DNA from: an uncultured Ruminococcus sp.
GTDB taxonomy: Bacteria > Bacillota > Clostridia > Oscillospirales > Acutalibacteraceae
Length of the DNA: 55,936 bases
NCBI GenBank assembly: GCA_902776185.1
Contig: CACYPH010000009.1
Location: forward strand, 1-55,936
Direction of reading: 5' to 3'
Part shown: one piece after another, positions 25,463 through 40,669 of the stretch
Position numbering within the stretch: position 1 is the first letter of the stretch
Layout of the letters: each line of letters starts with the position of its first letter
Notes under the pieces: generated by a model
Told to the model about the DNA's origin: nothing
Databases searched by the model: none
What the model saw: only the letters and a program-made list of their open reading frames with translations
Made by a program: the position numbers and the translations under genes

Positions 25463-26272
25463 TCATATATTCAATTCATATACCTTGTGTACGTTTTCGC
25501 TGAGGATCATGCGCTTTTCATCGTCGGAAAGCGGCAGCCCCATAAAGCGGTCGAGCTCCTTGATCGGCGACCACATCGGATAGTCGGTACCGAAGAGGAC
25601 GCGCTCTGCGCCGTAACGGCGGATGATCTCGACGGTCTTTTCGTCGGAGATCCACGGCATTGCTGACGAGCAGTCGACGTAGAGGTTCGGGATATCGCAG
25701 AGGACATGGCTCGCCTCTTCCCAGATCGACCAGCCGCCGAAATGCGCGCCGATGATGGTCAGATGATCATAGATCTGTAAAATCGGGATCAGGCGGTTGG
25801 GGTTAGAGTTATCGTAACGCTTATCGCCGGTATGCATGAGGATGGGCAAAGAGAATTCCTCGCACAGCTCGTAGATCTTCAAACAGCGGTAGTCGTCCAC
25901 CTTGAAGTTCTGGATATCGGGATGGAGCTTGACGCCCTTGAGCCCGAGCGCGATCAGATGCTCGACGTCTCCTCGCAGATCTTCGCTGTTGGGATGAAGT
26001 GTGCCGAGACCCGTGAGTTTTTCGGGGACGGCGTTCACTGTCGTCGCGATGAACTCGTTGATCGACTTCACCTGCTTGGGGGTCGTCGCGACAGACTGGA
26101 CGATGCTGTGATCGACGCCTGCCTGCTCGTTGACCGTGAGCAGATCGGCGGGCGTTCCCAGACACGCCGCTACGGTATCATAAAACTTGTCGGTACCCGC
26201 GACCGCCTTTTCGGCGATCTTCTCGGGGTAGATATGACAATGGGAATCGATGACAAAATAACCGTTTTTCAT
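25463..26272 (-). CDS. Amidohydrolase-2 family TIM-barrel protein
   Basis: A 269-residue metal-dependent hydrolase or decarboxylase of the amidohydrolase-2 type: DSHCHIYPEKI (HxH at the N-terminus), GVKLHPDIQ, PILMHTGDKRY, IIGAHFGG, and a late FGTDYPMWSP (catalytic Asp). The substrate is not evident; relatives include uronate-type and carboxylic-acid decarboxylases. Its ATG overlaps the stop of the upstream fusion gene (ATGA), so the two are coupled. Third gene of the Leu T-box unit. Confidence 0.85.
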   Translation of the reverse strand: MKNGYFVIDSHCHIYPEKIAEKAVAGTDKFYDTVAACLGTPADLLTVNEQAGVDHSIVQSVATTPKQVKSINEFIATTVNAVPEKLTGLGTLHPNSEDLRGDVEHLIALGLKGVKLHPDIQNFKVDDYRCLKIYELCEEFSLPILMHTGDKRYDNSNPNRLIPILQIYDHLTIIGAHFGGWSIWEEASHVLCDIPNLYVDCSSAMPWISDEKTVEIIRRYGAERVLFGTDYPMWSPIKELDRFMGLPLSDDEKRMILSENVHKVYELNI

Positions 26273-28797
26273 CAGGCGGTCACCACGCTTGCGGCTTTTT
26301 GGAGTCCGAGCTTTTCGACCGCGTCCTCGCGCATCTTGTACTTGAGGATCTTACCCGCGGCGTTCATCGGGAACTGGTCGACAAAATCAACGTAACGCGG
26401 GACTTTGTGGCGTGCCATGCTGGCGGCGACAAAGTCTTTCATCTCCTGCTCAGTCATGGTCTCGCCCTCTTTGAGAATGACGCACGCCATGATCTCTTCG
26501 CCGTAGTTTTCATCGGGCACGCCGATGACCTGTACATCGGAGACCTTCGGGTTGGTATAGATGAATTCTTCGATCTCCTTGGGATAGATATTCTCGCCGC
26601 CGCGGATAATCATATCCTTAAGTCTGCCGGTAATCTTGTAATAACCGTCCTCTGTCTTACAGGCAAGGTCGCCGGTATGCAGCCAGCCGTCCTTGTCGAT
26701 CGCCTTGGCGGTTTCCTCGGGCATCTTGTAATAGCCCTTCATGATATTATAGCCGCGCGCGACAAATTCGCCGTTGACATTGGGCGGGCATTCCTCGCCG
26801 GTCTCGGGATCGATAATCTTGCACTCGATCTCGGGCAGCTCCTTGCCGACGGTGGCGACGCGCACTTCGATCGAATCCTCGGTCGAGCTCATGGTGCATC
26901 CGGGGGACGCCTCGGTCTGACCGTAGACGATGGTGATCTCGGTCATGTGCATCTTCTCGACGACCTCGCGCATCTTGTCAATCGGGCAGGGCGAGCCTGC
27001 CATGATGCCGGTGCGCATATAGGAGAAGTCGGTTTTCGGGAAATCGGGATGCTCGAGCATCGAGATGAACATCGTCGGAACGCCGTGGAAAGCGGTGATG
27101 TGCTCAGAGTTGATGCAAGCGAGCGAGGGCTTCGGCGAGAAATACGGCAGCGGGAAGATCGAGGTGCCGTGGGTCATGGAGGCGGTCATCGCCAGAACCA
27201 TGCCGAAGCAGTGGAACATGGGAACCTGGATCATCATGCGGTCGGCAGTGGACAGATCCATGCGGTCACCGATATTCTTGCCGTTGTTGACGATATTGTA
27301 ATGGGTCAGCATGACGCCCTTGGGGAAGCCGGTGGTGCCGGAGGTGTACTGCATATTGCAGACGTCGTCCTTGTCGACCTGTGCCGCCATACGGTAGACC
27401 TCGGCTTTCGGAGTCTTGGAGGCGTAGCTTAACGCCTTTTCCCAAGTCAGACAGCCCTTCTGCTCAAAGCCGACGGTGATGACGTTGCGCAAAAACGGCA
27501 GACGCTTTGCATGGAGCTGTTCGCCCTCGGCGGTATTCTCCAGCTCAGGACACAGGCGGGCGATGATGTCGCCGTAGGAGGTGTCCTTTGCGCCGTAGGT
27601 AATGATCAGAGTGTGGGTATCGCTCTGCTTCAACAGGTACTCCGCCTCGTGGATCTTATAGGCAGTGTTGACGGTGACCAGCACCGCACCGAGCTTGACG
27701 GTCGCCCAGAACGCGATGTACCACTGGGGGACATTGGACGCCCATACCGCGACATGAGAGCCGGCTTTGACGCCGAGCGAGATCAGCACGCGGGCGAATT
27801 CGTCCACGTCGTCGCGGAACTCGGAGTAGGTGCGGGTATAATCGAGCGAGGTGTATTTGAACGCGATCTGGTCGGGGAATTCCTCTACCATGCGGTCGAG
27901 GACGTCCGAGAAGGTCGCGTCGATCAGCGTTTCCTTTTTCCAGACAAATTTTCCGGTGTGACGGTTGTTCCAGTAGAGGGCAGTCTCGTTTCTGGAGGTA
28001 TCGGCAAACTGCTTCATGTAGCTGATGAACTGGGAAAAAATGATCTCCATGTCGTCCAGCTCGGGACACCATCCGGGATCCCATACCAGCGAGATAAAGC
28101 CGTCGTAGTTGACCGAGCGCAGAGCTTTCATCATATCGCGGATCGGCAGATCGCCCTCGCCGAGCAGACGGTATTCGAGCCCGTCGTCGGTCTTGACCGC
28201 GTCGTTGAGATGGACATGGCGGACATAAGCGCCGAGGTTCGCGATGATCTTCGCGGGGCTCTCCCCTACCGTGAAGTACGCGGCGGACATATTCCACAGC
28301 GCGGCGACGTAATCGTCGGCAAAATACTCGAGCGTATCGCGTAAGAGCGCCGTATCGGCATACAAGCCGCGGGTCTCGATCAGCAGGCTGACGCGGTTCT
28401 TCTCCGATTCGGGGAGAACGGCTTCGATGACCTTTTTGACATTGGCGACCGCCGCGTCATGATCGTCGCATGCTTCCGCACGCAGGCGGATATTGGGAAT
28501 GCGGAGGTTGACGGCGATCTTCAGGCAGCTTTTTAGTTCTTCTACAGAATTATTGAACAGCTCCGGATCGCCGATATCGGTGATGACGTCGATGCAAGGC
28601 AGGCTCAGGCTGCGCTCGAACAGCATCCGCAGGGTCGTTGCGGCGGAATACTCATGGAACACGCTGTCCTTCTCGGAGAAGATGCGGTTGCGGATATTAT
28701 GGGGCTCGATGCCCTCGAAATGTAAATCCTCGGCAATCGCACAAAATTCTTCAAAAGAATTATCATGCCAGCCTTTGGTAGAAAATGAAAATTTCAT
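26272..28797 (-). CDS. TIM-barrel isomerase-like domain fused to acyl-CoA synthetase
   Basis: An 841-residue fusion. Residues 1 to about 270 resemble sugar-phosphate isomerase/epimerase TIM barrels (GWHDNSFEEFCAIAEDL, HVHLNDAV, LLGEGDLP). Residues about 300-835 are an adenylate-forming acyl-CoA synthetase: MQYTSGTTGFPKGVML (phosphate loop), VYGQTEASPG, LHTGDLACKTEDGYY, GRLKDMIIRGGENIYP and a terminal NAAGKILKYKM. Start at the ATG 28797, since an upstream TTG overlaps the ribosome site. Second gene of the Leu T-box unit, downstream of the LeuA-like gene. Context suggests activation of a branched acid such as isovalerate; this is inference. Confidence 0.88.
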   Translation of the reverse strand: MKFSFSTKGWHDNSFEEFCAIAEDLHFEGIEPHNIRNRIFSEKDSVFHEYSAATTLRMLFERSLSLPCIDVITDIGDPELFNNSVEELKSCLKIAVNLRIPNIRLRAEACDDHDAAVANVKKVIEAVLPESEKNRVSLLIETRGLYADTALLRDTLEYFADDYVAALWNMSAAYFTVGESPAKIIANLGAYVRHVHLNDAVKTDDGLEYRLLGEGDLPIRDMMKALRSVNYDGFISLVWDPGWCPELDDMEIIFSQFISYMKQFADTSRNETALYWNNRHTGKFVWKKETLIDATFSDVLDRMVEEFPDQIAFKYTSLDYTRTYSEFRDDVDEFARVLISLGVKAGSHVAVWASNVPQWYIAFWATVKLGAVLVTVNTAYKIHEAEYLLKQSDTHTLIITYGAKDTSYGDIIARLCPELENTAEGEQLHAKRLPFLRNVITVGFEQKGCLTWEKALSYASKTPKAEVYRMAAQVDKDDVCNMQYTSGTTGFPKGVMLTHYNIVNNGKNIGDRMDLSTADRMMIQVPMFHCFGMVLAMTASMTHGTSIFPLPYFSPKPSLACINSEHITAFHGVPTMFISMLEHPDFPKTDFSYMRTGIMAGSPCPIDKMREVVEKMHMTEITIVYGQTEASPGCTMSSTEDSIEVRVATVGKELPEIECKIIDPETGEECPPNVNGEFVARGYNIMKGYYKMPEETAKAIDKDGWLHTGDLACKTEDGYYKITGRLKDMIIRGGENIYPKEIEEFIYTNPKVSDVQVIGVPDENYGEEIMACVILKEGETMTEQEMKDFVAASMARHKVPRYVDFVDQFPMNAAGKILKYKMREDAVEKLGLQKAASVVTA

Positions 28798-28826
28798 ATG
28801 GTTTACCAACCTTCCAAGTATTGATA

Positions 28827-28900
28827 GTTACTCGCTACGCTCAAACATTTATACAATTCCTCACCCGCTTACGCGGGAGCTCCCTTTACCAAAGGGAGCC
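28827..28900. repeat. Two-hairpin dispersed repeat, copy 6
   Basis: CCCGC-tta-GCGGG type arms and CTCCCTTT-acc-AAAGGGAG. Its final C is the last base of the LeuA-like gene's TAG stop codon. Confidence 0.85.
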
Positions 28901-30267
28901 TATGACTCCTCGTAGACGATTTTGTTGACCGCGTTGACATAGGCGCGGATGGACGCGCTGATGATATCGGTGGATAAGCCTGTGCCGGCATAGATCTTGC
29001 CGCCGGCTCTCAGGCGGACAAGGGCGTTGCCCATCGCTTCTTTTTCCTGGGTCACGGTCTGGATATTGAAGTCGTCCAGCTCAAAATGTCTGCCGATGAT
29101 CTGATCGAGCGCATTGAACGCCGCGTCGATCGGACCGTCGCCCATCGAGATGCCGGTGACGGGCTTGCCGTCCTTGTTCAGGGTGATCTGGGCAGAGGCG
29201 GTGATGATATTGCCGGAGTTGATGACATAGTTTTCGAGCGTATAGGTGCTGGGGACCTGGAGCGCGGAGGACGCAACGATCGCGTCGAGCTCCTTAACGC
29301 CGACCGTCTTTTTGCGGGCGATGCGGCGGAATTCCTCGTATACCTTGCGGATATCTTCATCGGAGAGGTCGTAGCCGAGCTTTTCGACCATATCGCGGAC
29401 GGTGTCGACGGTATCGTTGACGCTGAGCTTGATGCCGTCGTCGGCGATCTCGCGCACGGTGGTGTTCGCCTTGCCGCTGATGATCCACTCGATCTGGTCG
29501 ATCACGCGGTGCAGCTCGGTGGAGCGGATGTCGGCATAGATGCCGTAATTCTCCTTGATGCTCGTCAGGATCGCGGCGAAATCGCGCAGCGGGGTGACCT
29601 CGCCTGCGACAGCGGTCTTGACGCCGGTGGCGCCGTTCTTGACAGCAAGTACGGAGGCGGCGGTGGCGACATGGTTTTTATCGCTGACCTGCACGCCGAT
29701 CTTTGCATCGATCCCTGCGGTGACATTCTGTACAAACGCCGCAAAATCATCGGGCAGGAGGATCGCCGCATCGTCGCAGACGGTGATTTCATCGGCGCCG
29801 GACTGTGCCGCGACAGTGATCGCTTCTTTGAGGAATTCTTCCTCGGCGCGGGTAGCATCAAGCGCGACAAACTCTACGTCATCGCAAAGGGACTTAGCCT
29901 TTTCGATCATCTCGCGGATATAGACAAGCATCTTCGGCTGCTTTTTATGCAGAGAGTATTCCATCACGGAGGATGACATCGGCAGCTCAACGCGGATGCG
30001 CGGATGCGCCGCGGACGAAAGCGCCTCGGCGGCACAGTCGATGCTGTCGAGCGAGGTCGTCGCTCCGATGGAGATCACGCTGTTCTTGACAAAGGAAGCA
30101 ATCGTACGGACGAGCAGGGTGTCCGCCTTGGAATGACCGATCTCGGATAGCTCGACGGCGTCGACTCCCAGTCGGTCCAGCTTGCGGGCAATCTCCAGCT
30201 TTTGCTTAAAGGACAGGTTGTTTTTGACGTCGCACAAGGTCACGTCGGAAATCTTGATCTGCTTCAT
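28900..30267 (-). CDS. 2-isopropylmalate-synthase-like protein without catalytic residues
   Basis: A 455-residue HMGL-like TIM barrel plus C-terminal LeuA allosteric/dimerisation domain (from about residue 330, TYTLENYVINSGN and GDGPIDAAFNALD). The barrel still aligns (DDVEFVALDATRAEEEF), but active-site residues are replaced: the DTTLRDGEQ start is DVTLCDVKN (Cys12 for Arg), the metal-binding HxHDD is VQVSDK (Gln193, Ser195) and the GxGERxGN loop is absent. So condensation of acetyl-CoA with 2-oxoisovalerate is unlikely. The leucine-binding domain suggests a sensor or regulator. First gene behind a Leu T-box. ATG with GAGGAAACTACT upstream. Confidence 0.85.
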   Translation of the reverse strand: MKQIKISDVTLCDVKNNLSFKQKLEIARKLDRLGVDAVELSEIGHSKADTLLVRTIASFVKNSVISIGATTSLDSIDCAAEALSSAAHPRIRVELPMSSSVMEYSLHKKQPKMLVYIREMIEKAKSLCDDVEFVALDATRAEEEFLKEAITVAAQSGADEITVCDDAAILLPDDFAAFVQNVTAGIDAKIGVQVSDKNHVATAASVLAVKNGATGVKTAVAGEVTPLRDFAAILTSIKENYGIYADIRSTELHRVIDQIEWIISGKANTTVREIADDGIKLSVNDTVDTVRDMVEKLGYDLSDEDIRKVYEEFRRIARKKTVGVKELDAIVASSALQVPSTYTLENYVINSGNIITASAQITLNKDGKPVTGISMGDGPIDAAFNALDQIIGRHFELDDFNIQTVTQEKEAMGNALVRLRAGGKIYAGTGLSTDIISASIRAYVNAVNKIVYEES

Positions 30268-30377
30268 AGTAGTTTCCTCTTTTCTGATAGTTGGTAGTTG
30301 ATGGTTGTTAGTTGGTAGTTAAGATAGTGCCTGCGGCGCGATCGGGAGTGCTACGCACTCGAGGAACTCTCTTTGTC

Positions 30378-30650
30378 ACAAAAAAGCCCCCGAGGTCGTT
30401 AGACCTCAGGGACGAATCAACTTCGCGGTACCACCCTGTTTACCGTACGCCTTTGTACGGTCACTCACCGGGCTCTGACAAGCCCTCTGCCATGATAACG
30501 GGACACGCCGTAGCCGCTTACTGATCGAAATGATTTCTGCGGCTCTGCTCCGAAATGAGACTCATGCAATACCTGTGTACCGTCTTGCACCAAACGACGG
30601 CTCTCTGAAACACGCAGTAGAGATGATAATTTCATCAACGCATTTAAGGT
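30378..30650 (-). promoter_or_regulatory. T-box riboswitch (Leu, CUC specifier)
   Basis: Minus strand. T-box AGGGTGGTACCGCG (30424-30437); terminator CCCTGAGGTC-taac-GACCTCGGGG then TTTTTT (30378-30411). Stem I apical part GTTTGGTGCAAG; the specifier read as CTC (30557-30559) lies 6 bases before a GAG, followed by A. The variable T-box base U pairs with the A discriminator of tRNA-Leu, as in the tRNA-Leu of this window. Controls the LeuA-like, fusion ligase and amidohydrolase genes. Confidence 0.92.
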
Positions 30651-30670
30651 GTTTTTTGTTGCTGTATCAA

Positions 30671-30699
30671 AATATACCACAACGTTATTTTTTTGTCAA
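30671..30699 (-). promoter_or_regulatory. Sigma-A promoter of the Leu T-box unit
   Basis: Minus-strand TTGACA, 17 bases, TATATT. Confidence 0.85.
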
Positions 30700-30740
30700 G
30701 GAATTTTGATGCTGAAAATCACTTTCGTGCTTTAGTACAA

Positions 30741-30766
30741 AAAAGGCGGACTGAGCGTCCGCCTTT
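30741..30766 (-). terminator. ilvE terminator
   Basis: AAAGGCGGAC-gctca-GTCCGCCTTT followed by TTTTG on the minus strand. End of the long Val T-box operon. Confidence 0.85.
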
Positions 30767-30782
30767 TGTGAAAATTTGTATT

Positions 30783-31844
30783 TTAGATCTCGACAGTCCA
30801 GTCGAATTTGTCCTCGAGCTTGCCCCACTGGATACCGGTCAGGGTATCGTAGAGATGCTGGGTCAGCTCGCCGATCTCGCCGTTGTTGACGGTGTACTTT
30901 GTGCCCTTGTAGCACAGCTCGCCGATGGGAGATACGACAGCCGCCGTACCGCAGCCCCATGCTTCTTCGAGCGTACCGTCAGCCATCGCCTGCGCCAGCT
31001 CGTCAACGGAGAGAAGTCTTTCCTCTACCTTGTAGCCCTCGCTCTTTAGAACGTCGATGATCGACTTACGGGTCACGCCGGGCAGGATCGATCCGGACAG
31101 CATCGGGGTAACGACGGTGCCGCTGATCTTGAACATAACGTTCATCGCGCCGACTTCCTCGATGTACTTGCGCTCGACGCCGTCGAGCCACAGAACCTGA
31201 GAATAGCCCTGCTGCTCAGCGCGCTCGCCGGCACGGTTGGAGGCAGCGTAGTTGCCGCCGCACTTCGCGTAGCCTGTACCGCCGCGGACAGCGCGGACAT
31301 CCTCGTCCTCGATCATGATCTTGACGGGGTTGATGCCCTCTTTGTAGTAAGAGCCGACAGGGGACGCGATGATGATGAACTCTGCGTTGTGAACAGCGTG
31401 AACGCCGAGGCTCTCGTCGTTGCCGAACATGAACGGTCTGAGGTACAGAGAGGTACCCTCAGCAGACGGAGTCCAATCTTCTTCGAGCTTGACGAACTCT
31501 TTTAACGCCTGCATGAAACCGTCTTCAGGCAGCTGCGGCAGGCACAGACGCTCGGCAGAATTGTTCATACGGCGGATGTTCTCGATGGGTCTGAACAGCT
31601 GGACCTTGCCGTCAGCGCGGCGATACGCCTTGAGACCCTCGAAGATCTCGGAGCCGTAGTGCAGTACGGTCGAGGCGGGATGGATGGAGAGGCGCTCAAA
31701 GGGAACGATACGGGGATTGTACCAACCCTTCTCGCTGTTCCAGCTCCACATAAACATATGATCGGTGAAAATCTTGCCGAAGCCGAGGGTCGACGGATCG
31801 GGCTTCGCGGCAGGATTGGGATTTAAGGTAACTTTGATATCCAT
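30783..31844 (-). CDS. ilvE: Branched-chain amino acid aminotransferase
   Basis: A 353-residue class IV PLP transaminase that interconverts Val, Leu, Ile and their 2-oxo acids. Features: VLHYGSEIFEGLKAYR, the PLP-lysine region GYAKCGGNYAASNRAGERA, YIEEVGAMNVMF (Glu near the cofactor), and EEAWGCGTAAVVSPIG. Length is typical for the larger BCAT form. ATG at 31844 has AAAGGAG upstream. It is the last gene of the operon that begins with the Val T-box, after vorC and a dispersed repeat. Confidence 0.95.
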   Translation of the reverse strand: MDIKVTLNPNPAAKPDPSTLGFGKIFTDHMFMWSWNSEKGWYNPRIVPFERLSIHPASTVLHYGSEIFEGLKAYRRADGKVQLFRPIENIRRMNNSAERLCLPQLPEDGFMQALKEFVKLEEDWTPSAEGTSLYLRPFMFGNDESLGVHAVHNAEFIIIASPVGSYYKEGINPVKIMIEDEDVRAVRGGTGYAKCGGNYAASNRAGERAEQQGYSQVLWLDGVERKYIEEVGAMNVMFKISGTVVTPMLSGSILPGVTRKSIIDVLKSEGYKVEERLLSVDELAQAMADGTLEEAWGCGTAAVVSPIGELCYKGTKYTVNNGEIGELTQHLYDTLTGIQWGKLEDKFDWTVEI

Positions 31845-31867
31845 GATGATTCTCCTTTCATGATTTG

Positions 31868-31946
31868 GTGACTCGGGCTTTGCCCTCAAACAATTATGCA
31901 ATTCCTCAGTCACCTTTGGTGACAGCTCCCTTTACCAAAGGGAGCC
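31868..31946. repeat. Two-hairpin dispersed repeat, copy 7
   Basis: Extra GGGC-ttt-GCCC hairpin, TCACC-ttt-GGTGA arms and CTCCCTTT-acc-AAAGGGAG. It ends directly against the vorC stop codon and separates vorC from ilvE. Confidence 0.85.
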
Positions 31947-32480
31947 TTAATACTCTGCGCCGAGCTTGATCGCCTTGAGGTTGACTTCCTTCATATCGGC
32001 GTGGCGCGCGGAAATGACCTTATCGAGCGCGGCGTTGAGGCCGTCCTCGGTGTAATCGCCGATCTCCTTTAAGAGCTTGCCGACGATGATCATATTGGCG
32101 AGGTTGCCGAGCTTGTTATCGGACGCCATCTGGGTCGCCGGAACATAGAACACGGTAACGTCGTCGCGCTTTACCTTGCGCTCGATCAGGGTGGAGTCCG
32201 CGATGATCATGCCGCCGGGAACGACTGCGTCCTCGAAACGGTCGAGAGACGGCAGGTTCATCGCGATCAGAATATCGGGATTGCTGACGATCGGAGAACC
32301 GACGGGTGTATCGGACACGATGACGGAGCAGGAAGCCGTACCGCCGCGCATCTCGGGGCCGTAGGATGGCAGCCAGCTGACCTGCTTATCCTCGATCAGA
32401 CCCTTGTAGGCGATGAATTTGCCGGCGAAAAGGATACCCTGACCGCCGAATCCGGAGAAAAGCATATTTTTCGCAGCCAT
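31947..32480 (-). CDS. vorC: 2-oxoacid:ferredoxin oxidoreductase, gamma subunit
   Basis: A 177-residue gamma subunit: [20 protein letters not shown] at the start (residues 8-27) and [19 protein letters not shown], typical of PorG/KorC/VorC. Together with VorB and VorA it oxidatively decarboxylates 2-oxo acids to acyl-CoA, or runs in reverse. One-base overlap with vorA (TAATG). Branched-chain preference is inferred from operon context; 2-oxoglutarate enzymes share the architecture. Confidence 0.9.
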
Positions 32481-33241
32481 TACTCTGCCTCCTTCTGCTC
32501 TGCGGAGCGATCTTTATAAACGCCGAGGGGATAATACGGCAGCATATCGCTGTCGATCCAATCGAGCGCCTGCTTGGGGGTCATGCCCCAGTTGGTCGGG
32601 CAGGAAGAAACAACCTCTACGAGAGAGAAGCCTTTGCCGTCGATCTGGTTCTGGAACGCCTTTTTGATCGCCTTCTTCGCGGCGCGGATGTTCTTGACAT
32701 TGTTGACGGTGACGCGCTCGAGGTACTCGGGACCGACCAGCTCGGAGAGCATCTCGCAAACCTTGATCGGATAACCGCAAGCCTTGGGATCTCTGCCGTA
32801 GGGAGAGGTCTGGGTGACCTGACCGACCAGAGATGTCGGCGCCATCTGACCGCCGGTCATACCGTAGATCGCGTTGTTGATAAAGATGACGGTGATGTTC
32901 TCGTTGCGCGCAGCAGCGTGGACGGTCTCAGCCATACCGATAGAGGCAAGGTCGCCGTCACCCTGATAGGTGAAAACGATATGGTTTTCGGGATCGGCGC
33001 GCTTGACGCCGGTAGCGACTGCCGGAGCGCGGCCGTGCGCCGCCTCGATCATGTCGCAGTTAAAATAGTTATATGCCATAACGGAGCAGCCGACCGGTGC
33101 GATACCGATGGTCTTGCCCTCGATGCCCAGCTCGTCGATGACCTCGGCGACCAGACGGTGAACGATACCGTGGGTACAGCCGGGGCAGTAATGCAGCGGG
33201 ACGTCGATCAAAGCATGGGGTTTGTCAAATACAACAGCCAT
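32480..33241 (-). CDS. vorA: 2-oxoacid:ferredoxin oxidoreductase, beta (TPP) subunit
   Basis: A 253-residue thiamine-diphosphate-binding subunit: CPGCTHGIVHRLVAE, VGCSVMAYNY, and the TPP motif TYQGDGDLASIGMAE with FINNAIYGMTGGQMAPTS. ATG at 33241 lies in TAATG with the vorB stop, and GGAGGTATGAAGTA is the ribosome site; the longer frame runs back into vorB. Middle part of the Val T-box operon. Confidence 0.92.
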   Translation of the reverse strand: MAVVFDKPHALIDVPLHYCPGCTHGIVHRLVAEVIDELGIEGKTIGIAPVGCSVMAYNYFNCDMIEAAHGRAPAVATGVKRADPENHIVFTYQGDGDLASIGMAETVHAAARNENITVIFINNAIYGMTGGQMAPTSLVGQVTQTSPYGRDPKACGYPIKVCEMLSELVGPEYLERVTVNNVKNIRAAKKAIKKAFQNQIDGKGFSLVEVVSSCPTNWGMTPKQALDWIDSDMLPYYPLGVYKDRSAEQKEAE

Positions 33242-34302
33242 TACTTCATACCTCCGTTCACTTCGATAATAGAATTGAGTACCTGCTTCGGGTCGGGGAT
33301 CATGCCGCCGGCACGATTGCACAGGGTTACAGGACATTTACTCTCGGTCGCGAGGATGACGTCCTCGATCATCTGACCCATGTTCAGCTCGACAGAGATA
33401 AACGCCTTTGCGTGCTCTGCGGCAGCCTTGAAGGGCGCCTTCGGGAACGGCCAGAGGGTGATCGGACGGATCAGTCCCGCCTTGATGCCCATCTTGCGGG
33501 CTTCGTCGACAGCGTTCTTAGAAACACGTGCGGCGATACCGAATGCGGCGAGAACGATATCGGCGTCCTCTACCTTATATTCTTCAAACATGGTCTCGTT
33601 CTCTTCGATGACCTTGTAGCGATCGTAGCGCTTGAAGTTCAGCTCCTCGAGTTCCTCGGGAACGAGGGACAGGGAGTTGACGATGTTGTGCTCGCGCGCC
33701 ATCTGCGTACCGGTGGTCGCCCACGGCTTTTCGTGAGCGGGCTTAACGTCGAGGTCAAGGTTGACCGGCTCCATCATCTGACCCATCGTACCGTCCGCAA
33801 GGATCATCGAGGTCATGCGGTATGTATCGGCAAGCTCAAAGCCCTTGACGGTCAGCTCTGCCATCTCCTGTACGGATGCGGGAGCGAGAACGATCATGTG
33901 ATAGTCGCCGTGGCCGCCGCCGCGGGTGGACTGGAAGTAGTCGGACTGAGAGGGCTGGATGCCGCCGAGTCCGGGGCCGCCGCGCTGGACGTTGACGATC
34001 AGCGAGGGCAGATCGGAGCCTGCGAGATAGGACAGACCTTCGCCTTTCAGCGATACGCCCGGAGAGGACGAGGAGGTCATAACGCGTTTACCGGCGGATG
34101 CGACGCCGTAAACCATATTGATCGCGGCGATCTCGGATTCCGCCTGGAGAAATGTACCGCCGATCTTAGGCATTTTCTTCGCCATATAAGCGGCGATCTC
34201 TGTCTGAGGCGTGATCGGGTAGCCGAAATAATGACGGCAGCCGGCGATGATCGCGGCTTCGGCGATCGCCTCGTTACCTTTCATCAAAATCTTATCGGAC
34301 AT
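33241..34302 (-). CDS. vorB: 2-oxoacid:ferredoxin oxidoreductase, alpha subunit VorB
   Basis: A 353-residue pyruvate-flavodoxin-oxidoreductase-type alpha subunit: KGNEAIAEAAIIAGCRHYFG, PITPQTEIAAYM, FLQAESEIAAINMVYGVASA (residues 51-70), and a C-terminal transketolase-like domain with FISVELNMGQM. Closest by eye to VorB of 2-oxoisovalerate:ferredoxin oxidoreductase. It follows the ferredoxin subunit by 7 bases. Confidence 0.92.
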   Translation of the reverse strand: MSDKILMKGNEAIAEAAIIAGCRHYFGYPITPQTEIAAYMAKKMPKIGGTFLQAESEIAAINMVYGVASAGKRVMTSSSSPGVSLKGEGLSYLAGSDLPSLIVNVQRGGPGLGGIQPSQSDYFQSTRGGGHGDYHMIVLAPASVQEMAELTVKGFELADTYRMTSMILADGTMGQMMEPVNLDLDVKPAHEKPWATTGTQMAREHNIVNSLSLVPEELEELNFKRYDRYKVIEENETMFEEYKVEDADIVLAAFGIAARVSKNAVDEARKMGIKAGLIRPITLWPFPKAPFKAAAEHAKAFISVELNMGQMIEDVILATESKCPVTLCNRAGGMIPDPKQVLNSIIEVNGGMK

Positions 34303-34309
34303 TTTTTCA

Positions 34310-34516
34310 CTACCTTTCTACCTTAATGATACAATCCGGACACATCATCGCGCAGGATGCGCAGCCGATGCATTTCTCCATATCGATGCACTCGGCAGGG
34401 TGATGACCCTTCTTGTTGATTTTGTCTGTAGCGATCTGCAGGATGCCTTTGGGGCAAGCGTAGACGCACAGCGAACAACCTTTACAGTTGTCGGTTTTGA
34501 ATGTCAGCTTTGCCAT
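34310..34516 (-). CDS. vorD: 2[4Fe-4S] ferredoxin subunit of Vor complex
   Basis: A 68-residue ferredoxin with two cluster motifs, CKGCSLCVYACP and CIGCASCAMMCP. It would deliver or take electrons for the VorBAC enzyme; reduced ferredoxin is needed for carboxylation. The ATG at 34516 is preferred to one 6 bases upstream because GGGG is then 8 bases away. Confidence 0.92.
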   Translation of the reverse strand: MAKLTFKTDNCKGCSLCVYACPKGILQIATDKINKKGHHPAECIDMEKCIGCASCAMMCPDCIIKVER

Positions 34517-34537
34517 ATTCATATCCCCTTCTCAAAA

Positions 34538-35200
34538 TTATATCAATTTAGCCTGTAGCTGCAGGCTGAATATAGGGCTAAGTTTGTCTTTCAGCTCGTC
34601 ATAGAGCCGATCCTCGACCGTGGTGCAGACGACGGGAAGTCCGGAGCGCTTTCCGACTTCGTTCGCATAATCGACGGTATCGAGGACGTCCTGTGCGGTG
34701 GTCTCGCGGGCGATGTTAGAGTTATTGATGATGCCCGTGAACGGAATGCCGCACGCCGCCTCTATCTCCCCCATCACTTCCAATGTACTTTGTGCATCAG
34801 GGGTCAGTGGGCGGTATTGATTGACGACCATGTACATATCATAGTCGTTTTCGGTGAGGATCGCGTCGCGCAGTCTGCCGAGCGCATATGCGCCGCGGTC
34901 GTCGCCGCCGATGTCGAGGATGACGGACAGGCTGTGGTCGTCGGTGATCGAGTATAAGTCTGCAGGCATGGACGGCAGATCGACATTGGAGGAGGCAAAG
35001 TCCGAGCAAATCAGGCGGATGCCGCGCTCCTCAAAATCTTTCTGGCTGTCCTTGGTACGGAAATACGGGTTGACGATATCGAGATCGGCTACGGCGACAT
35101 TGTCACGCTGAGCGCGCAGATCGTATGCCATATTGACGGCGATATTGGTCTTGCCCGAGCCGTAATGCCCGCACAGGATGGTTAAACGTTTATATTTCAT
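34538..35200 (-). CDS. ParA/MinD-like P-loop ATPase
   Basis: A 220-residue ATPase with Walker A GHYGSGKTNIAVNMA (residues 11-25), ADLDIVNPYFRTK and VILDIGGDDRG. It belongs broadly to the CobQ/MinD/ParA class. Such ATPases are often next to 2-oxoacid oxidoreductase genes; its function is not known, though iron-sulfur cluster or enzyme maturation is imaginable. Nine bases after the acyl-CoA synthetase stop and 21 before vorD, so in the operon. Confidence 0.82.
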   Translation of the reverse strand: MKYKRLTILCGHYGSGKTNIAVNMAYDLRAQRDNVAVADLDIVNPYFRTKDSQKDFEERGIRLICSDFASSNVDLPSMPADLYSITDDHSLSVILDIGGDDRGAYALGRLRDAILTENDYDMYMVVNQYRPLTPDAQSTLEVMGEIEAACGIPFTGIINNSNIARETTAQDVLDTVDYANEVGKRSGLPVVCTTVEDRLYDELKDKLSPIFSLQLQAKLI

Positions 35201-35209
35201 CGTGATGTA

Positions 35210-37501
35210 TTACAGCAAATTACGCTGGATCTTGCCGCTGGTGGTCTTGGGCAGGCTGTCACGGAAGACGACGATTCGCGGGTACTTATACGGCGCGGTA
35301 TGCGTCTTGACGTAATTCTGGATCTCCTTTTTCAGTTCATCGGTACCTTCGGTGCCGGGGACAAGGACGATGGACGCCTTGACAACCTGACCGCGCACCT
35401 CGTCGGGAGCGGCAGATACGCCGCACTCGAGGACATAGGGCAGCTCCATGATGACGGACTCGATCTCAAACGGTCCGATGCGGTAACCGGATGACTTGAT
35501 AACGTCGTCAACTCTGCCGACATAGTAGTAGAAACCGTCCTCATCGCGCCATGCAAGGTCGCCGGTATGGTAATAACCGTTGCGCCATGTTTTGCGGGTC
35601 GCCTCAACGTCGTTGTAGTAGTACAGCGCCAGTCCGCAGGGCAGACCCTTGCTGATATCGATAACAACCTCGCCGGGTTCGCCGTCGGGAACATCGTTGC
35701 CGTCCTTGTCGATCAGGTGGAGATTGTAGATGGGCGAAGGACGTCCGAGCGAGCCGATCTTATGCGACGCGCCGATCATGTTGCAGATGATAACGGCGGT
35801 CTCGGTCTGACCGAAGCCCTCCATGATCTGGAGTCCGGTAAGCTTCTCGAATTGGCGGTAAACCTCGGGGTTGAGCGCTTCGCCCGCGGTAGTCATACGC
35901 TTGACGGAGCTGAGGTCGTATTTGGAGATATCCTGCTTGATCATCATGCGCAGCATCGTAGGCGGCGCGCAGAAGGTCGTGATCTTGTACTTGGCGAACA
36001 TCGGCAGGATATCCTCGGCGTGGAAACGGTCGAAGTCGTAGACGAAGATCGCGGCTTCGCACAGCCACTGACCGTAGATCTTGCCCCATGCCGCCTTTGC
36101 CCAGCCGGTATCGGAAATCGTGAAATGGAGACCGTCGGGGTCGACACTGTGCCAGAACTTCGCGGTCTGGAAATGACCGAGCGCGAGCTTGTGACAATGG
36201 GCGGCAATCTTCGGATAACCCGAGGTGCCGGAGGTGAAGTACATCAGCATCAAATCGTCGCCGCAGGGGCTGTCGGGTTTTCTCTCAAAGTGAGAGGAGA
36301 ACAGGGTGTATTCCTCGTCAAAATTGCGCCAGCCTTCGCGCGTACCGTTGACGATGATCTTCTGGACCTGCGGGAATTTCTCGCAGGCGATATCGACCTC
36401 GGCGGCGGTATCGCCGTCGGCAGTGCAGAGGATCGCACAAACGCCGGCTGACTTGAAGCGGTATTCAAAGTCGTGGCTCTGGAGCTGGTTGGTCGCGGGG
36501 ATCGCGATTGCGCCCAGCTTATGCAGGCCCATCAGCGCGAACCAGAACTGGTAGTGGCGCTTTAAGACCAGCATGACGCGGTCGCCGCGCTTGATGCCGA
36601 GCGACTTGAAATAGTTAGCGCACTGGCTGGATTTATGACGGATATCGGTAAAGGTGAAGCGGCGCTCTGTCTTATCCTGAGAGATATGGAGCATGGCGAG
36701 CTTGTTCGGCTCGCGGTAGGAGATCGCGTCGATGACGTCGAAGGCAAAGTTGAATTTGTCCTCGTTCTTGAAAGTGACCTTGGTGGGCGTACCCTTCTCG
36801 TTGGTCTCGAACTCGACAAATTTATTATATTCGCGCTCTTTTTCCTTATCGTCAGCGGTGATGATGCTGTTGTCCTGGATCTTCTTGCCCTGTTCGAGCT
36901 CGGGGATCGGCTCGCCGGTCGGGTTGAGGACGATCGCATAGAATACGCAGTCCTTGCCGCCGACAGCAATCATGCCGTGGGGCGTGTCGGAATCAAAGTA
37001 GATGGAATCTCCGGGACCTAAGGTTTCTTTATGCTCGCCGACCTGGACCATCAGCTCGCCCTCGACAACGAGGTCAAGCTCCTGACCCGCGTGAGTCGTC
37101 AGCTCGATGGGCTTTGACTGGGCGTCGGGATTGTATTTGCTCTTGACGTACAGCGGCTCTGCGATACGGTTCTGGAACGCGTAGGCGAGGTTATAGTAGG
37201 TCATGCCGTGCGCTTGGCTCACCTTTTGACCGCCGCCGCGGCGGGTAACGGTGTAGCCTCTCAGGTTCGGTGAAAAGCCTTCGATGATATCGGTAACGTT
37301 GACGTTGAGCACCTGTGCGCAGCGATAGATGAACGCAAAGTTCAGATCCTGTTCGCCGGATTCGCAGGCGGTGTATTCTTCCTCGGAGACGTCGGTGAAC
37401 TTTGCCATCTCGGCGATCGTGTGACCCTCAAGCTCACGAAGCTCGCGGATACGCTGTGCCATCTCCTTGATCTTTGCATCTAATGCGGTTATTTTTTCCA
37501 T
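35210..37501 (-). CDS. HTH-cupin-acyl-CoA synthetase fusion (Val T-box unit)
   Basis: A 763-residue three-part protein. Residues about 10-72: XRE helix-turn-helix (RIRELRELEGHTIAEMAKFT). About 125-195: cupin (HAGQELDLVVEGELMVQVGE, GDSIYFDSDTPHGM). From about 250: adenylate-forming acyl-CoA synthetase with YFTSGTSGYPKIAAH, MEGFGQTETAV, YHTGDLAWRDEDGFYYYVGR, VDDVIKSSGYRIGPFE and the catalytic KTTSGKIQRN. The ligase part resembles medium-chain acyl-CoA synthetases, which include branched short-chain users. First gene behind a Val T-box and followed by ATPase, vorDBAC and ilvE; isobutyrate is the likely substrate (inference). The HTH-cupin part may sense acyl-CoA or acid. Confidence 0.9.
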   Translation of the reverse strand: MEKITALDAKIKEMAQRIRELRELEGHTIAEMAKFTDVSEEEYTACESGEQDLNFAFIYRCAQVLNVNVTDIIEGFSPNLRGYTVTRRGGGQKVSQAHGMTYYNLAYAFQNRIAEPLYVKSKYNPDAQSKPIELTTHAGQELDLVVEGELMVQVGEHKETLGPGDSIYFDSDTPHGMIAVGGKDCVFYAIVLNPTGEPIPELEQGKKIQDNSIITADDKEKEREYNKFVEFETNEKGTPTKVTFKNEDKFNFAFDVIDAISYREPNKLAMLHISQDKTERRFTFTDIRHKSSQCANYFKSLGIKRGDRVMLVLKRHYQFWFALMGLHKLGAIAIPATNQLQSHDFEYRFKSAGVCAILCTADGDTAAEVDIACEKFPQVQKIIVNGTREGWRNFDEEYTLFSSHFERKPDSPCGDDLMLMYFTSGTSGYPKIAAHCHKLALGHFQTAKFWHSVDPDGLHFTISDTGWAKAAWGKIYGQWLCEAAIFVYDFDRFHAEDILPMFAKYKITTFCAPPTMLRMMIKQDISKYDLSSVKRMTTAGEALNPEVYRQFEKLTGLQIMEGFGQTETAVIICNMIGASHKIGSLGRPSPIYNLHLIDKDGNDVPDGEPGEVVIDISKGLPCGLALYYYNDVEATRKTWRNGYYHTGDLAWRDEDGFYYYVGRVDDVIKSSGYRIGPFEIESVIMELPYVLECGVSAAPDEVRGQVVKASIVLVPGTEGTDELKKEIQNYVKTHTAPYKYPRIVVFRDSLPKTTSGKIQRNLL

Positions 37502-37525
37502 ACCTTACCTCTTTCCGGGACAAGC

Positions 37526-37805
37526 AAAAACACCCGTCCCAAAGCAATAACTTTGAGACGAGTGTGAAATTCACATCCGCGGTACCACTCAAATTGCACG
37601 CCGCTATCGCAGCAATACCACTCTCAGGGTCCATCAACCCCCAGACATTGACGCAGTCATCACGGAGGAGGTCTAGTCACCGAAACACGGCTTTCTTCTC
37701 CCCGGCTCAGAAGCTACAAACACGGAAATCATCACGGGAGCTTTCACCAACCGCTCCTTCTCTGAGTGATGACAGACCGAGCCCTCTTCGTCACAGCCTT
37801 TATCG
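37526..37805 (-). promoter_or_regulatory. T-box riboswitch (Val, GUA specifier)
   Basis: Minus strand. T-box TGAGTGGTACCGCG (37578-37591), terminator CGTCTCAAAG-ttattg-CTTTGGGACG then GTGTTTTT (37526-37566). Stem I has AGAGAAGGAGCGGTTGGTG. With the 6-base spacing to GAG seen in the Thr and Leu leaders, the specifier is GTA (37715-37717, Val). T-box base U fits the A discriminator of tRNA-Val. Heads the operon acyl-CoA synthetase to ilvE. Confidence 0.88.
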
Positions 37806-37811
37806 CTCCTA

Positions 37812-37840
37812 ATGTTATCACAATCTTTGGTATTTGTCAA
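37812..37840 (-). promoter_or_regulatory. Sigma-A promoter of the Val T-box unit
   Basis: Minus-strand TTGACA, 17 bases, TAACAT. Confidence 0.8.
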
Positions 37841-37848
37841 CAGGAAAT

Positions 37849-37874
37849 TCTACCTTCCTTTACCAAAGGAAGGT
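37849..37874. repeat. Short hairpin related to the dispersed repeat
   Basis: ACCTTCCTTT-acc-AAAGGAAGGT has the same loop and design as the second hairpin of the dispersed repeat but different arms. It lies just upstream of the Val T-box promoter, beyond the Ile unit's final gene. Confidence 0.65.
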
Positions 37875-37947
37875 GGGTTTGCCGCAAGGCAAACGCGAAT
37901 GAATTGTATGAATGACCGAGCACAGCGAGAAACAACAGTTTCAATCG

Positions 37948-38021
37948 GTTGGTCGCTGCGCTCCGTTCTTCAATTCCTCAGTCACGGTGTTCCGTGACAG
38001 CTCCCTTTACCAAAGGGAGCC
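37948..38021. repeat. Two-hairpin dispersed repeat, copy 8
   Basis: TCACGG-tgt-tCCGTGA arms and CTCCCTTT-acc-AAAGGGAG. It ends 5 bases from the stop of the second HTH-cupin ligase gene. Confidence 0.85.
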
Positions 38022-38026
38022 GGATA

Positions 38027-40291
38027 TCAGAGCTGATTCCTCTGGATCTTGCCGCTGATGGTCTTGGGCAGGCTGTCGCGGAAGACGACGATTCGCGGGT
38101 ACTTATACGGCGCGGTATGCGTCTTGACATAATTCTGGATCTCTTTCTTGAGCTCCTCCGTACCCTCGGTGCCCTTTACCAGCACGACAGACGCCTTGAC
38201 GACCTGACCGCGCACCTCGTCGGGAGCGGCAGATACGCCGCACTCGAGAACATAGGGCAGCTCCATGATGACGGATTCGATCTCGAACGGGCCGATACGG
38301 TAGCCGGACGACTTGATGACGTCGTCGACTCTGCCGACATACCAGAAATAGCCGTCCTCATCGCGCCATGCGGTGTCGCCGGTATGATACATCCCGTCGT
38401 GCCATGCTTCTTTGGTCGCTTCTTCGTTTCGATAATAGCCCTTGAAGAGTCCGCAGGGAACGCGTTTATCGGTATGGATAACGATCTCGCCGGGCTCGCC
38501 GACAGGAACGGGCTTGCCGTCGGGATCGACGATATCGACGTCATAGCCGGGGATGGGCTTGCCCATCGAGCCGATCTTCGGCGCGGTACCGAAGAGGTTG
38601 CCGATGGTGAGGGTGGTCTCGGTCTGACCGAAGCCCTCCATGATCCTCAGTCCGGTCGCTTTCTTGAATTGGCGGTACACCTCGGGGTTCAGCGCCTCGC
38701 CGGCGGTGGTCATATGGACGATGCCGGACAGATCATACTTGCTGATATCCTGCTTGATCATCATGCGCAGCATGGTGGGCGGCGCGCAGAAGGTGGTGAT
38801 GTGATGCTTTGCGAACATCGGCAGGATATCCTCGGCATGGAAGCGGTCGAAGTCATAGGTGAATACCGCGCCCTCAGCGAGCCACTGACCGTAGAGCTTG
38901 CCCCACAGCGCCTTGCCCCAGCCGGTATCGGAGATGGTGAAGTGCAGACCGTCGGGATCGACGCCGTGCCAGTACTTGGCGGTGACATAGTGACCCAGCG
39001 GGTACTTGAAGCTATGGGCGGCGATCTTCGGGTAACCGGTCGTGCCGGAGGTAAAGAGCATGAGCATGGTATCGTCGCCGCAGGGGGTCTCGACGGTGCG
39101 ATAGAAATGGGTCGAATACAGATCGAATTCGCTGTCAAAGTCGCGCCAGCCCATACGCTGACCGCCGACGATGATCTTGGTAACAAGGGTCGGAGAGGTC
39201 TTTTGCGCTTCGTCGACCGCATCGGCAACTGCGCCGTCGGCAGTCGCGACGATCGCAGAAACGCCTGCCGCGTTGAAGCGGTACTCAAAGTCGTGCGCGA
39301 GGAGCTGGTTGGTCGCGGGGATCGCGATCGCGCCGAGCTTATGCAGTGCGAGCATGGAGAACCAGAATTCGTAGTGGCGCTTCAAGACCAGCATGACGCG
39401 GTCGCCCTTCTTGATACCGAGCGACTTGAAATAGTTCGCGGTCTGGTTGGAGCGGCGTTTCATATCATTAAAGGTGAAGGTGCGGGTCAGCTTGTTCTTG
39501 TCGATATGGAGCATCGCGAGCTTGTCGGGGGTGTTGTTGGCAATCGCGTCCACGCAGTCAAAGGCAAAGTTGAATTTGTCCTCATTCTTGAAGCTGATCG
39601 CTTTCAGACAGCCATTCTCGTCCTCGATGGTCTTGACGAACTGCTCGGAGATCAGCGGCTTCTGCGCGATATGGGCGCGCATGAGTTCGTCGTCGACCTC
39701 CTGCGTTTCCTTTTCTCCCGGGAGGATGATCGCGATGAATTTGCAGTCCTCACCCTCGACGGCGATCATGCCGTGGGGTGTGGAAGAATTGTAGTAGATG
39801 CTGTCGCCTGCGCCGAGGACCTCGAAGTTGTCGCCGATCTGGATCTTCATTTTGCCGGAAAGGACAAAGTCGAATTCCTGACCGTTGTGCTTGGTCAGAT
39901 GGATCGGCTTATTCTGGAGCGCCTCATCGTAATCGTATTGACAGAAATACGGCTCGGCGATCTTGTTCTTGAACATCGGGGCAACGTTGACGATAGAGAT
40001 GCCCTGTTCCTCTGCGGTCTGGCGTCCGCCGCCGCGGCGGGTAACGGTATAGCTCGACAGTCGCGCGGATTCGCCCTCGAGGATATCGGTAATACCCAAG
40101 CCGAATGCTAACGCGCACTTGTGGATAAAGGTAAAGGGGAAGTCCTCCCTGCCCTCTTCAAAGGCACGGTACTCCGCAGGGGTGACCTCGGTTTTCTCCG
40201 CCATCTCATCGACGGTGAAGCCCGAGATCTCACGCATTTCGCGGATACGGCGCGCTACCTCTAACAACTTTTCGTTTTCTACTACTGACAT
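38027..40291 (-). CDS. HTH-cupin-acyl-CoA synthetase fusion (Ile T-box unit)
   Basis: A 754-residue paralogue of the protein at 35210 with the same order: XRE helix-turn-helix (RIREMREISGFTVDEMAEKT), cupin (HNGQEFDFVLSGKMKIQIGD, GDSIYYNSSTPHGM), then the ligase with LFTSGTTGYPKIAAH, MEGFGQTETTL, YHTGDTAWRDEDGYFWYVGR and KTISGKIQRN. The last about 110 residues are almost identical to the paralogue, while the HTH-cupin parts differ more. ATG at 40291 with GGGAGGAATCATT upstream. Only gene behind the Ile T-box; 2-methylbutyrate is the likely substrate (inference). Confidence 0.9.
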   Translation of the reverse strand: MSVVENEKLLEVARRIREMREISGFTVDEMAEKTEVTPAEYRAFEEGREDFPFTFIHKCALAFGLGITDILEGESARLSSYTVTRRGGGRQTAEEQGISIVNVAPMFKNKIAEPYFCQYDYDEALQNKPIHLTKHNGQEFDFVLSGKMKIQIGDNFEVLGAGDSIYYNSSTPHGMIAVEGEDCKFIAIILPGEKETQEVDDELMRAHIAQKPLISEQFVKTIEDENGCLKAISFKNEDKFNFAFDCVDAIANNTPDKLAMLHIDKNKLTRTFTFNDMKRRSNQTANYFKSLGIKKGDRVMLVLKRHYEFWFSMLALHKLGAIAIPATNQLLAHDFEYRFNAAGVSAIVATADGAVADAVDEAQKTSPTLVTKIIVGGQRMGWRDFDSEFDLYSTHFYRTVETPCGDDTMLMLFTSGTTGYPKIAAHSFKYPLGHYVTAKYWHGVDPDGLHFTISDTGWGKALWGKLYGQWLAEGAVFTYDFDRFHAEDILPMFAKHHITTFCAPPTMLRMMIKQDISKYDLSGIVHMTTAGEALNPEVYRQFKKATGLRIMEGFGQTETTLTIGNLFGTAPKIGSMGKPIPGYDVDIVDPDGKPVPVGEPGEIVIHTDKRVPCGLFKGYYRNEEATKEAWHDGMYHTGDTAWRDEDGYFWYVGRVDDVIKSSGYRIGPFEIESVIMELPYVLECGVSAAPDEVRGQVVKASVVLVKGTEGTEELKKEIQNYVKTHTAPYKYPRIVVFRDSLPKTISGKIQRNQL

Positions 40292-40351
40292 AATGATTCC
40301 TCCCAAACTATTTTTTGATTAGTTCGATGGAATGAATGTACGCTAATGAAT

Positions 40352-40640
40352 AAAAAAACACCCGTCTCAATTCGACATTGAGACGAGTGTGAAAATCACA
40401 TCCGCGGTACCACTCAACTTGCAGTATTGCTACTGCCACTTCAGGGTCCATCAACCCCTAGGCATTAACGCAGCCATCACGGGAGGTATCTACTCAGCAT
40501 GGAATACGCGCGCTTTTCGGGCCTCCGGCTCGGAAGGGATGGGTACTGAGGAAGCTATTACCGGCTCACAGCAGCCGCCGGCTCTCTGAAAATATCTGTC
40601 CCTGACCGTCTTCGTCACAGCCATTAAAGATTGTACTTTG
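40352..40640 (-). promoter_or_regulatory. T-box riboswitch (Ile, AUC specifier)
   Basis: Minus strand. T-box TGAGTGGTACCGCG (40402-40415); terminator CGTCTCAAT-gtcga-ATTGAGACG then GGTGTTTTTTT (40352-40390). The 6-base spacing to GAG gives ATC (40538-40540, Ile); the next base is C rather than the usual purine, which lowers certainty a little. The core after stem I is very like the Val leader (GATGGACCCTGA shared), pointing to duplication with specifier change. Confidence 0.83.
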
Positions 40641-40641
40641 A

Positions 40642-40669
40642 ATTGTATCACAAAACAAAAATTTGTCAA
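40642..40669 (-). promoter_or_regulatory. Sigma-A promoter of the Ile T-box unit
   Basis: Minus-strand TTGACA, 16 bases, TACAAT. Confidence 0.8.

Follow-up and report, generated by a model that had tools for sequence, protein, structure and literature searches.

The window considered here is the whole of contig CACYPH010000009.1 (55,936 nucleotides, nt), contig 9 of a 1.88-Mb assembly (GCA_902776185.1) of an uncultured Ruminococcus sp. that is 86% complete and in 74 contigs. Between positions 25463 and 40669, three consecutive units occur on the minus strand, each with a promoter, a T-box, and a terminator, and with specifiers for isoleucine, valine, and leucine. The locus is very probably a tRNA-switched salvage system, in which branched acids would be converted into branched-chain amino acids by reductive carboxylation, with a protein derived from LeuA (2-isopropylmalate synthase) as probable leucine sensor. 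The sequence establishes the T-boxes, the specifiers and their conservation, the gene content, the loss of the LeuA motifs, and that ilvC and ilvD are not found in the genome.

The Ile unit has a single gene, for a fusion of a helix–turn–helix (HTH) domain, a cupin, and an AMP-forming ligase. The Val unit contains, in this order, a second HTH-cupin-AMP-ligase fusion, a P-loop nucleoside triphosphatase (NTPase), vorD, vorB, vorA, vorC, and ilvE. The Leu unit codes, in this order, for a LeuA-like protein, a barrel-AMP-ligase, and an amidohydrolase. A first-pass annotation of the same DNA had proposed three minus-strand units, each with a promoter of the TTGACA type and a T-box at its start and each coding for an acyl-CoA synthetase, with vorDBAC and ilvE among them. 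The promoters (10–11 of 12 matches), the T-boxes (63.3–116.3 bits with RF00230), and vorDBAC with ilvE (within the Val unit) are all present. A ligase is also present in all three units, but in the Leu unit it is the second gene, after the LeuA-like protein. The degenerate LeuA, the HTH-cupin domains, and a pocket residue that differs between the Ile and Val types go beyond that annotation.

A scan with the fusion ligase gave at least 457 relatives, of which the best 80 loci were analyzed. Since all were found via the fusion ligase, the sample is one of ligase-bearing loci. It holds four near-identical pairs, and four of the 29 stretches from family genomes discussed below are identical in DNA to loci of this set, so that the counts are not counts of independent events. 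The closest relative in the scan is the uncultured Ruminococcus sp. RUG14157 (Ile-type ligase 95% identical), and the record names comprise Ruminococcus, Oscillospiraceae, Clostridia, Erysipelotrichaceae, Christensenella, and others. One carrier (L067, Erysipelotrichaceae bacterium NK3D112) does not have the title of a metagenome-assembled genome and is probably an isolate. The arrangement of T-box plus ligase, which the annotation had suggested looking for elsewhere, recurs widely, in the 80 loci.

T-box leaders and their specifier codons

In the Ile unit, the promoter TTGACA-16-TACAAT (40642–40669, 11 of 12 matches) precedes a T-box leader at 40376–40627 (RF00230 78.4 bits, E 7.7e-16) with the specifier AUC at 40540–40538. 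The Val unit has TTGACA-17-TAACAT (37812–37840, 10 of 12) and a leader at 37551–37803 (63.3 bits, E 5.9e-12) with GUA at 37717–37715, and the Leu unit TTGACA-17-TATATT (30671–30699, 11 of 12) and a leader at 30405–30647 (116.3 bits, E 1.4e-25) with CUC at 30559–30557. In this covariance-model search, the gathering score of 93 is exceeded by the Leu leader only, the Ile and Val leaders being below it. The T-box sequence and, downstream, an intrinsic terminator are present in all three leaders, and the terminator-like hairpins richest in pairs (14, 16, and 12) close the three T-boxes. The folding z-scores of the leader ends are −4.18, −3.85, and −2.14, with the Leu end equaled by three of 200 shuffles. 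The best three promoter-like sites of the minus strand (11, 11, and 10 of 12, starting at 40669, 30699, and 37840) lie directly 5′ of the T-boxes; the total of such sites in the region, 12, shows no excess over shuffles (8.8, standard deviation 3.3).

In the 80 loci, a T-box core occurs less than 600 nt upstream of 72/75 Ile-type ligases, 59/72 Val-type entries, and 27/34 LeuA-like genes (counting genes with at least 400 nt upstream). Of the 13 Val-type entries without a core, two are artifacts, namely the second piece of one gene (L034) and a spurious match at 24% identity (L088); without them, the count is 59/70. Upstream of the genes within units, cores are absent (NTPase 0/66, vorB 0/65, ilvE 0/52), so that the placement of the T-boxes is beyond chance. 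Promoters with at least 10 of 12 matches precede the T-boxes of relatives in 72/76 Ile, 55/60 Val, and 22/29 Leu cases. An extended −10 is common to the promoters of all three kinds of unit, and the Val-unit promoters (37812–37840 and relatives) share, besides it, some spacer sequence, AAAGTTGTGA-like.

The specifier has a fixed position: it was read as the three bases that precede, in order, a single base, a four-base part of the 3′ helix strand, another single base, and GAGC or a variant (with GAGC preferred in parsing). Applied by eye to four other T-boxes of the window's genome, this rule gives TTC, TGC, ACC, and TGG before pheS, cysS, thrS, and trpE; Phe, Cys, Thr, and Trp are thus correctly read, a positive control for the rule. 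The gene names there come from NCBIfam (pheS, thrS, and trpE above the cut-offs, cysS a fragment of 238 amino acids below it); another T-box, in L005, was left out.

Among the readable leaders of the window and the 80 loci, those of Ile-type ligases have AUC in 75/75, those of Val-type ligases a Val codon in 60/60 (GUA 55, GUC 5), and those of LeuA-like genes a Leu codon in 28/28 (CUC 22, CUG 6). The leader of L023 is incomplete, and one read as CUC by eye (L020) stands outside the last count; the counts also omit three leaders (two GUA, one CUC) for which the stretch contains no downstream gene. In 29 family genomes, AUC is the specifier in the leader of the best ligase in all cases (29/29; 24 by script, five by eye), and a second leader, where in reach and parsed, reads GUA in 17/17; two further cores of these stretches, on the opposite strand, do not enter the counts (L102, spurious; L115, reading CUC). 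At the plain Rfam alignment position, the Leu specifier would be UCU. This reading is ruled out because the relatives vary between CUC and CUG one base further on, a variation that is synonymous only in the Leu frame. Across relatives the specifiers vary only synonymously, and the codon meanings claimed by the first-pass annotation (Leu CUC, Val GUA, Ile AUC) hold throughout. The enzymes downstream presumably serve the amino acid of the specifier.

Fusion ligases and the Val-unit enzymes

The Ile-type ligase (38027–40306, with ATG 40291 the likelier start; minus strand, as are all features of the locus) has the Pfam domains HTH_19, Cupin_2, and AMP-binding, and is a predicted 2-methylbutyrate-CoA ligase. 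The Val-type ligase (35210–37501), likewise an HTH-cupin-AMP-binding ligase, is a predicted isobutyrate-CoA ligase. The best NCBIfam model for both is MbcS (442 bits for the Ile type, 410 for the Val type; cut-off 850), and the best PDB match of the Ile type is 3etc (616.6 bits, with the next at 339).

The comparison of the two types covers 81 Ile-type and 63 Val-type ligases, labeled by best tblastn score. In a tree of the core, the types separate without error (support 1.0); the pair in the window is 65% identical. Fourteen positions separate the types at 90%, twelve of them at residues 57–136 (within the HTH-cupin part or close to it) and the other two in the ligase part (381 and 464). Position 464 is Gly in 81/81 Ile-type and Ala in 63/63 Val-type ligases, and positions 103 and 115 of the HTH-cupin part likewise separate the types without exception. 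With numbering from the motif YHTGD, W468 corresponds to Trp259 of MacsMa (the 3etc enzyme) and G560 to Gly351, and both residues are kept in 81/81 Ile-type and 63/63 Val-type ligases. Position 464, a Gly in MacsMa, lies four residues before the tryptophan matching Trp259, which is critical for substrate binding. We take position 464 to be equal to a pocket residue of acetyl-CoA synthetase, and Gly351 presumably is the glycine that replaces the acetate-type tryptophan in the MacsMa paper. An alanine at 464 might give a smaller pocket for a smaller acid. Position 467, looked at for its nearness to 464, is Leu in 81/81 Ile-type ligases and Met (44), Ala (18), or Gly (1) in the Val type.

MbcS of Staphylococcus aureus uses 2-methylbutyrate and isobutyrate, whereas isovalerate is a poor substrate (PMC10026030), and MacsMa of Methanosarcina acetivorans has 2-methylbutyrate as preferred substrate (PMC10455477). 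The fusion ligases are, like both, AMP-forming ligases, and the substrate tryptophan of MacsMa is kept in them; unlike both, they carry additional HTH and cupin domains and fall into two clades, with Gly or Ala at 464. The ligases nearest to them use 2-methylbutyrate or isobutyrate; as far as sequence can tell, this agrees with the action on branched short acids proposed in the first-pass annotation for the Ile and Val types. In a weaker form of the proposed salvage, not its opposite, the substrates of the ligases would overlap and the control alone would be split, any shortage raising a general branched-acid ligase. The 65% identity and the acceptance of both acids by MbcS (PMC10026030) lend this variant some weight. 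We consider it doubtful given the clean split into clades, the fixed Gly/Ala difference near the substrate tryptophan, and the specifier AUC in five of five leaders read among ten ilvC-bearing genomes with one ligase (G136, G159, and G118 by script; G053 and G082 by eye).

Two observations concern the ends of the fusion ligases. Their last 79 residues are 94% identical in the window, versus 49–74% in four other segments, and this C-terminal part no longer separates the Ile and Val clades (144 sequences); either gene conversion or strong constraint would account for it. The HTH-cupin part is only 49% identical between the paralogues and yet holds most of the type-separating positions, which raises the question of a paralogue-specific sensing or DNA binding.

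Behind the Val-type ligase comes the P-loop NTPase (34538–35200, of CbiA/MinD/ParA type by Pfam), kept in the Val unit near the Val-type ligase and vorD in 66/80 loci and perhaps involved in Fe-S assembly. All four Vor subunits follow: VorD (34310–34522), a ferredoxin-like subunit of 70 amino acids with two cysteine clusters in its sequence; VorB (33241–34302); VorA (32480–33241), the thiamine pyrophosphate-binding subunit (PF02775; open reading frame to 33337, ATG 33241 likelier); and VorC (31947–32480), the gamma subunit (PF01558). VorB is over the curated cut-off of NF005507, named 3-methyl-2-oxobutanoate dehydrogenase VorB (534.4 bits vs. 399), and VorA and VorC pass no NCBIfam cut-off. 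A Vor restricted to 2-oxoglutarate, which the first-pass annotation had named as fatal to its proposal, is not what this assignment indicates. VorB of the locus is the only place over the cut-off in the window's genome, and because of this it may have a second role, e.g., in 2-oxoglutarate synthesis. The unit ends with the branched-chain aminotransferase IlvE (30783–31913, ATG 31844 likelier; NF009897 483.6 bits vs. 307). All five genes, vorDBAC and ilvE, are seen in 51/80 loci.

The Leu unit and its LeuA-like protein

The first gene of the Leu unit (28900–30267) codes for a protein with the 2-isopropylmalate synthase fold but without the catalytic motifs (from Pfam, alignment, and model), a pseudo-LeuA and candidate leucine sensor. 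It is the only protein with a LeuA_dimer domain (PF08502, 105.4 bits) found in the window's genome. The motifs RDGxQ, HxHND, and GERxGN of LeuA are catalytic. In an alignment of 35 LeuA-like sequences (about 455–470 amino acids) with two annotated 2-isopropylmalate synthases, they are kept in 0/35 and the replacements are not conserved; single residues survive in a few (the Arg in two, the Asp in six, the second His in one). GDGP[VI]DA of the regulatory domain is largely kept. In the barrel, the identity of the LeuA-like proteins to the two canonical LeuA is 0.27–0.29 and that of the canonical pair 0.54; in the regulatory domain, the corresponding values are 0.30–0.34 and 0.27. In the predicted structure (mean pLDDT 86.9, pTM 0.59), the barrel matches 3ewb (TM-score 0.91 by target), and the arrangement of the domains is uncertain. 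The protein is like LeuA in the barrel fold and the LeuA_dimer domain, and unlike it in the missing catalytic motifs and in its length.

Among the 24 family genomes with two fusion ligases and no ilvC, a single LeuA_dimer match is present in 23 and none in the remaining one, and HxHND is absent in 21/21 readable frames of ilvC-lacking genomes. The motif is also absent in 4/5 readable frames of ilvC-bearing genomes, two of which (G166 and G096) have a second, longer LeuA_dimer frame. Such longer frames (534–596 amino acids) occur in ilvC-bearing genomes, several sharing a contig with ilvC, and the one that was read (L158) has both HxHND and GERxGN. A pattern match to RDGxQ in L130 was rejected, since it lies off the catalytic site, which reads DTTLHRNAAG. 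A search of plasmids with the LeuA-like protein gave 142 records, none with at least 60% identity; of the matches listed, two are annotated as 2-isopropylmalate synthase and three have no annotation.

On sequence grounds, the LeuA-like protein has lost the catalytic motifs and kept the regulatory domain. LeuA_dimer domains bind leucine, as the kept domain presumably would, and pseudo-LeuA is probably a leucine sensor at the protein level. It could instead be an enzyme with an altered reaction, as the confidently predicted barrel (pLDDT blocks mostly >90) and the persistence of a DATR-like motif would suggest; with none of the three motifs kept in any of the 35 sequences, and with replacements that are not conserved, this is unlikely.

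The ligase of the Leu unit (26272–28809, ATG 28797 likelier) joins a xylose-isomerase-like barrel to an AMP-binding ligase (PF01261, PF00501, PF13193) and is a predicted isovalerate-CoA ligase. Its best NCBIfam model is PRK12583 (694.6 bits, cut-off 832), and a match to the ligase lies on the same stretch in 31/36 loci where a LeuA-like gene is seen. That MbcS is poor on isovalerate fits a separate third ligase. The barrel comprises residues 1–280, and its possible metal-binding residues vary (WNMSA in the window, WDxHH in several relatives).

The last gene of the Leu unit in the window is that of an Amidohydrolase_2 protein (25463–26272, Pfam), seen in 5/80 loci. Directly past the unit end there is a long hairpin (25372–25443); its weak matches to microRNA models are put down to a chance likeness to a hairpin. 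Elsewhere in the window, a fourth T-box (7895–8093, specifier ACC) precedes thrS, and a tRNA gene lies at 48343–48422 on the plus strand.

Pathway genes and the proposed route

In the window's genome, ilvC and ilvD are not found, with 14/14 control genomes positive, and leuC has only a match far below the cut-off, in a frame of 654 amino acids that would be an aconitase (controls over the cut-off in 9/14). The search covered ilvC, ilvD, and leuC; of the absences that the first-pass annotation had expected under salvage, those of ilvC and ilvD are borne out and leuC is far below its cut-off. The bacterium, of rumen type, appears to lack the ordinary pathway to valine, isoleucine, and leucine. 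Among 50 of the 80 loci, the genome lacks ilvC in 46. In a set of 150 family genomes (149 at least 90% complete and the window's), ilvC is present in 3/28 genomes with two fusion ligases, 10/19 with one, and 77/103 with none (Fisher p 7.5e-10 for two ligases versus none, with kinship ignored). A full-length ligase had at least 1000 bits; the partial matches in G122 and G185 were added by hand and that in G171 was not. Within the genus of the window, one genome (G107) has both ligases and no ilvC, and another (G195) has ilvC and no ligase.

In the proposed route, uncharged tRNAIle, tRNAVal, or tRNALeu would let transcription pass the terminator of the matching T-box. A dedicated ligase would then be made, of the Ile type for 2-methylbutyrate, of the Val type for isobutyrate, and with the barrel for isovalerate. 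The acyl-CoA would be carboxylated by VorDBAC with reduced ferredoxin to the 2-oxo acid, which IlvE would aminate, and the LeuA-derived protein of the Leu unit, lacking catalytic motifs, would act as leucine sensor. The ligase substrates, the direction of Vor, and the sensor role are those that we infer. The same chain, from an uncharged branched tRNA to the matching ligase and the rebuilt amino acid, was the inference of the first-pass annotation, and the checks that could be run are mostly in its favor. Possible, and put forward tentatively, is a control in two layers: the T-boxes would set the amounts of the ligases, the dead LeuA, retained for its leucine-binding domain, would bind the end product and in this way tune the isovalerate ligase, and the HTH-cupin-ligases would be trigger enzymes that both make and sense acyl-CoA.

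Several points weigh against the salvage route. The route from each of the three acids requires Vor and IlvE, which are found behind the Val switch only, so that a shortage of Ile or Leu alone would not raise them; Ile and Leu would have to rely on basal expression, unless Val is usually the limiting one. No T-box core is seen upstream of 11/70 Val-type ligases (artifacts removed) and 7/34 LeuA-like genes, and in some loci a single T-box precedes a long run of genes; three loci named Christensenella are among those with a T-box at the Ile-type ligase only and the Val-type ligase close behind. MbcS and PRK12583 are matched below their cut-offs, and the Leu-unit ligase has no close characterized relative. 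With an assembly 86% complete and in 74 contigs, a single absence is weak. The gene ilvC is kept in 4/50 locus-bearing genomes and, in the family set, in 3/28 two-ligase and 10/19 one-ligase genomes, and it is also lacking in 26/103 genomes without a fusion ligase. Two ilvC-bearing genomes (G159 and G118) have a motif-less LeuA only.

Nothing in the sequence fixes the direction of the route, and Vor enzymes are oxidative in many anaerobes. In the reverse direction, Vor would oxidize 2-oxo acids derived from amino acids to acyl-CoA, from which the ligases, running backwards, would yield ATP and branched acids. Activation of a T-box by uncharged tRNA would be the wrong signal for breakdown, and the locus-bearing genomes, mostly without ilvC, would then have these amino acids from uptake only, which renders such a direction very improbable. 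That the ligases mainly supply branched-chain primers for membrane lipids, as MbcS, the best (below cut-off) NCBIfam model of both fusion ligases, feeds lipid synthesis in S. aureus (PMC10026030), is very improbable in view of the amino acid-specific T-boxes and the linkage with vorDBAC and ilvE, both of which suggest amino acids as products; lipids may nevertheless receive some of the acyl-CoA.

The salvage locus resembles known systems in its parts. T-boxes occur before operons for amino acid biosynthesis, e.g., ilv-leu. With these the leaders share Stem I with its specifier, the antiterminator/terminator, and genes for the matching amino acid downstream; unlike them, they control acyl-CoA ligases and reductive carboxylation, with a separate switch for each of the three branched-chain amino acids. 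In a survey of T-boxes (PMC2494555), the main text lacks the words CoA, ferredoxin, and acyl, and in another (PMC3766115, with regulon lists in supplements outside the search) it lacks ferredoxin, acyl-CoA, and branched-chain. Titles from 1966, 1969, and 1971, cited in PMC7356843, treat how rumen bacteria carboxylate branched acids to Leu, Val, and Ile. The chemistry proposed for the locus is that of these titles, which are biochemical; the locus adds candidate genes and switches. The first author of the 1966 paper is said to be Allison. In the open-licence literature searched, we met no account of T-box control of branched-acid ligases with one switch per amino acid, nor of a pseudo-LeuA controlled by a leucine T-box. 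T-boxes and the carboxylation of branched acids are each known, and their union is apparently undescribed in that literature.

It has long been known that rumen bacteria need branched acids and carboxylate them to amino acids. The locus supplies candidate genes for the whole of this route, and it shows how a cell could sense its demand for each of the amino acids independently. Acyl-CoA ligases are hard to annotate, and the specifier of a T-box may, in addition, serve to label them by substrate.

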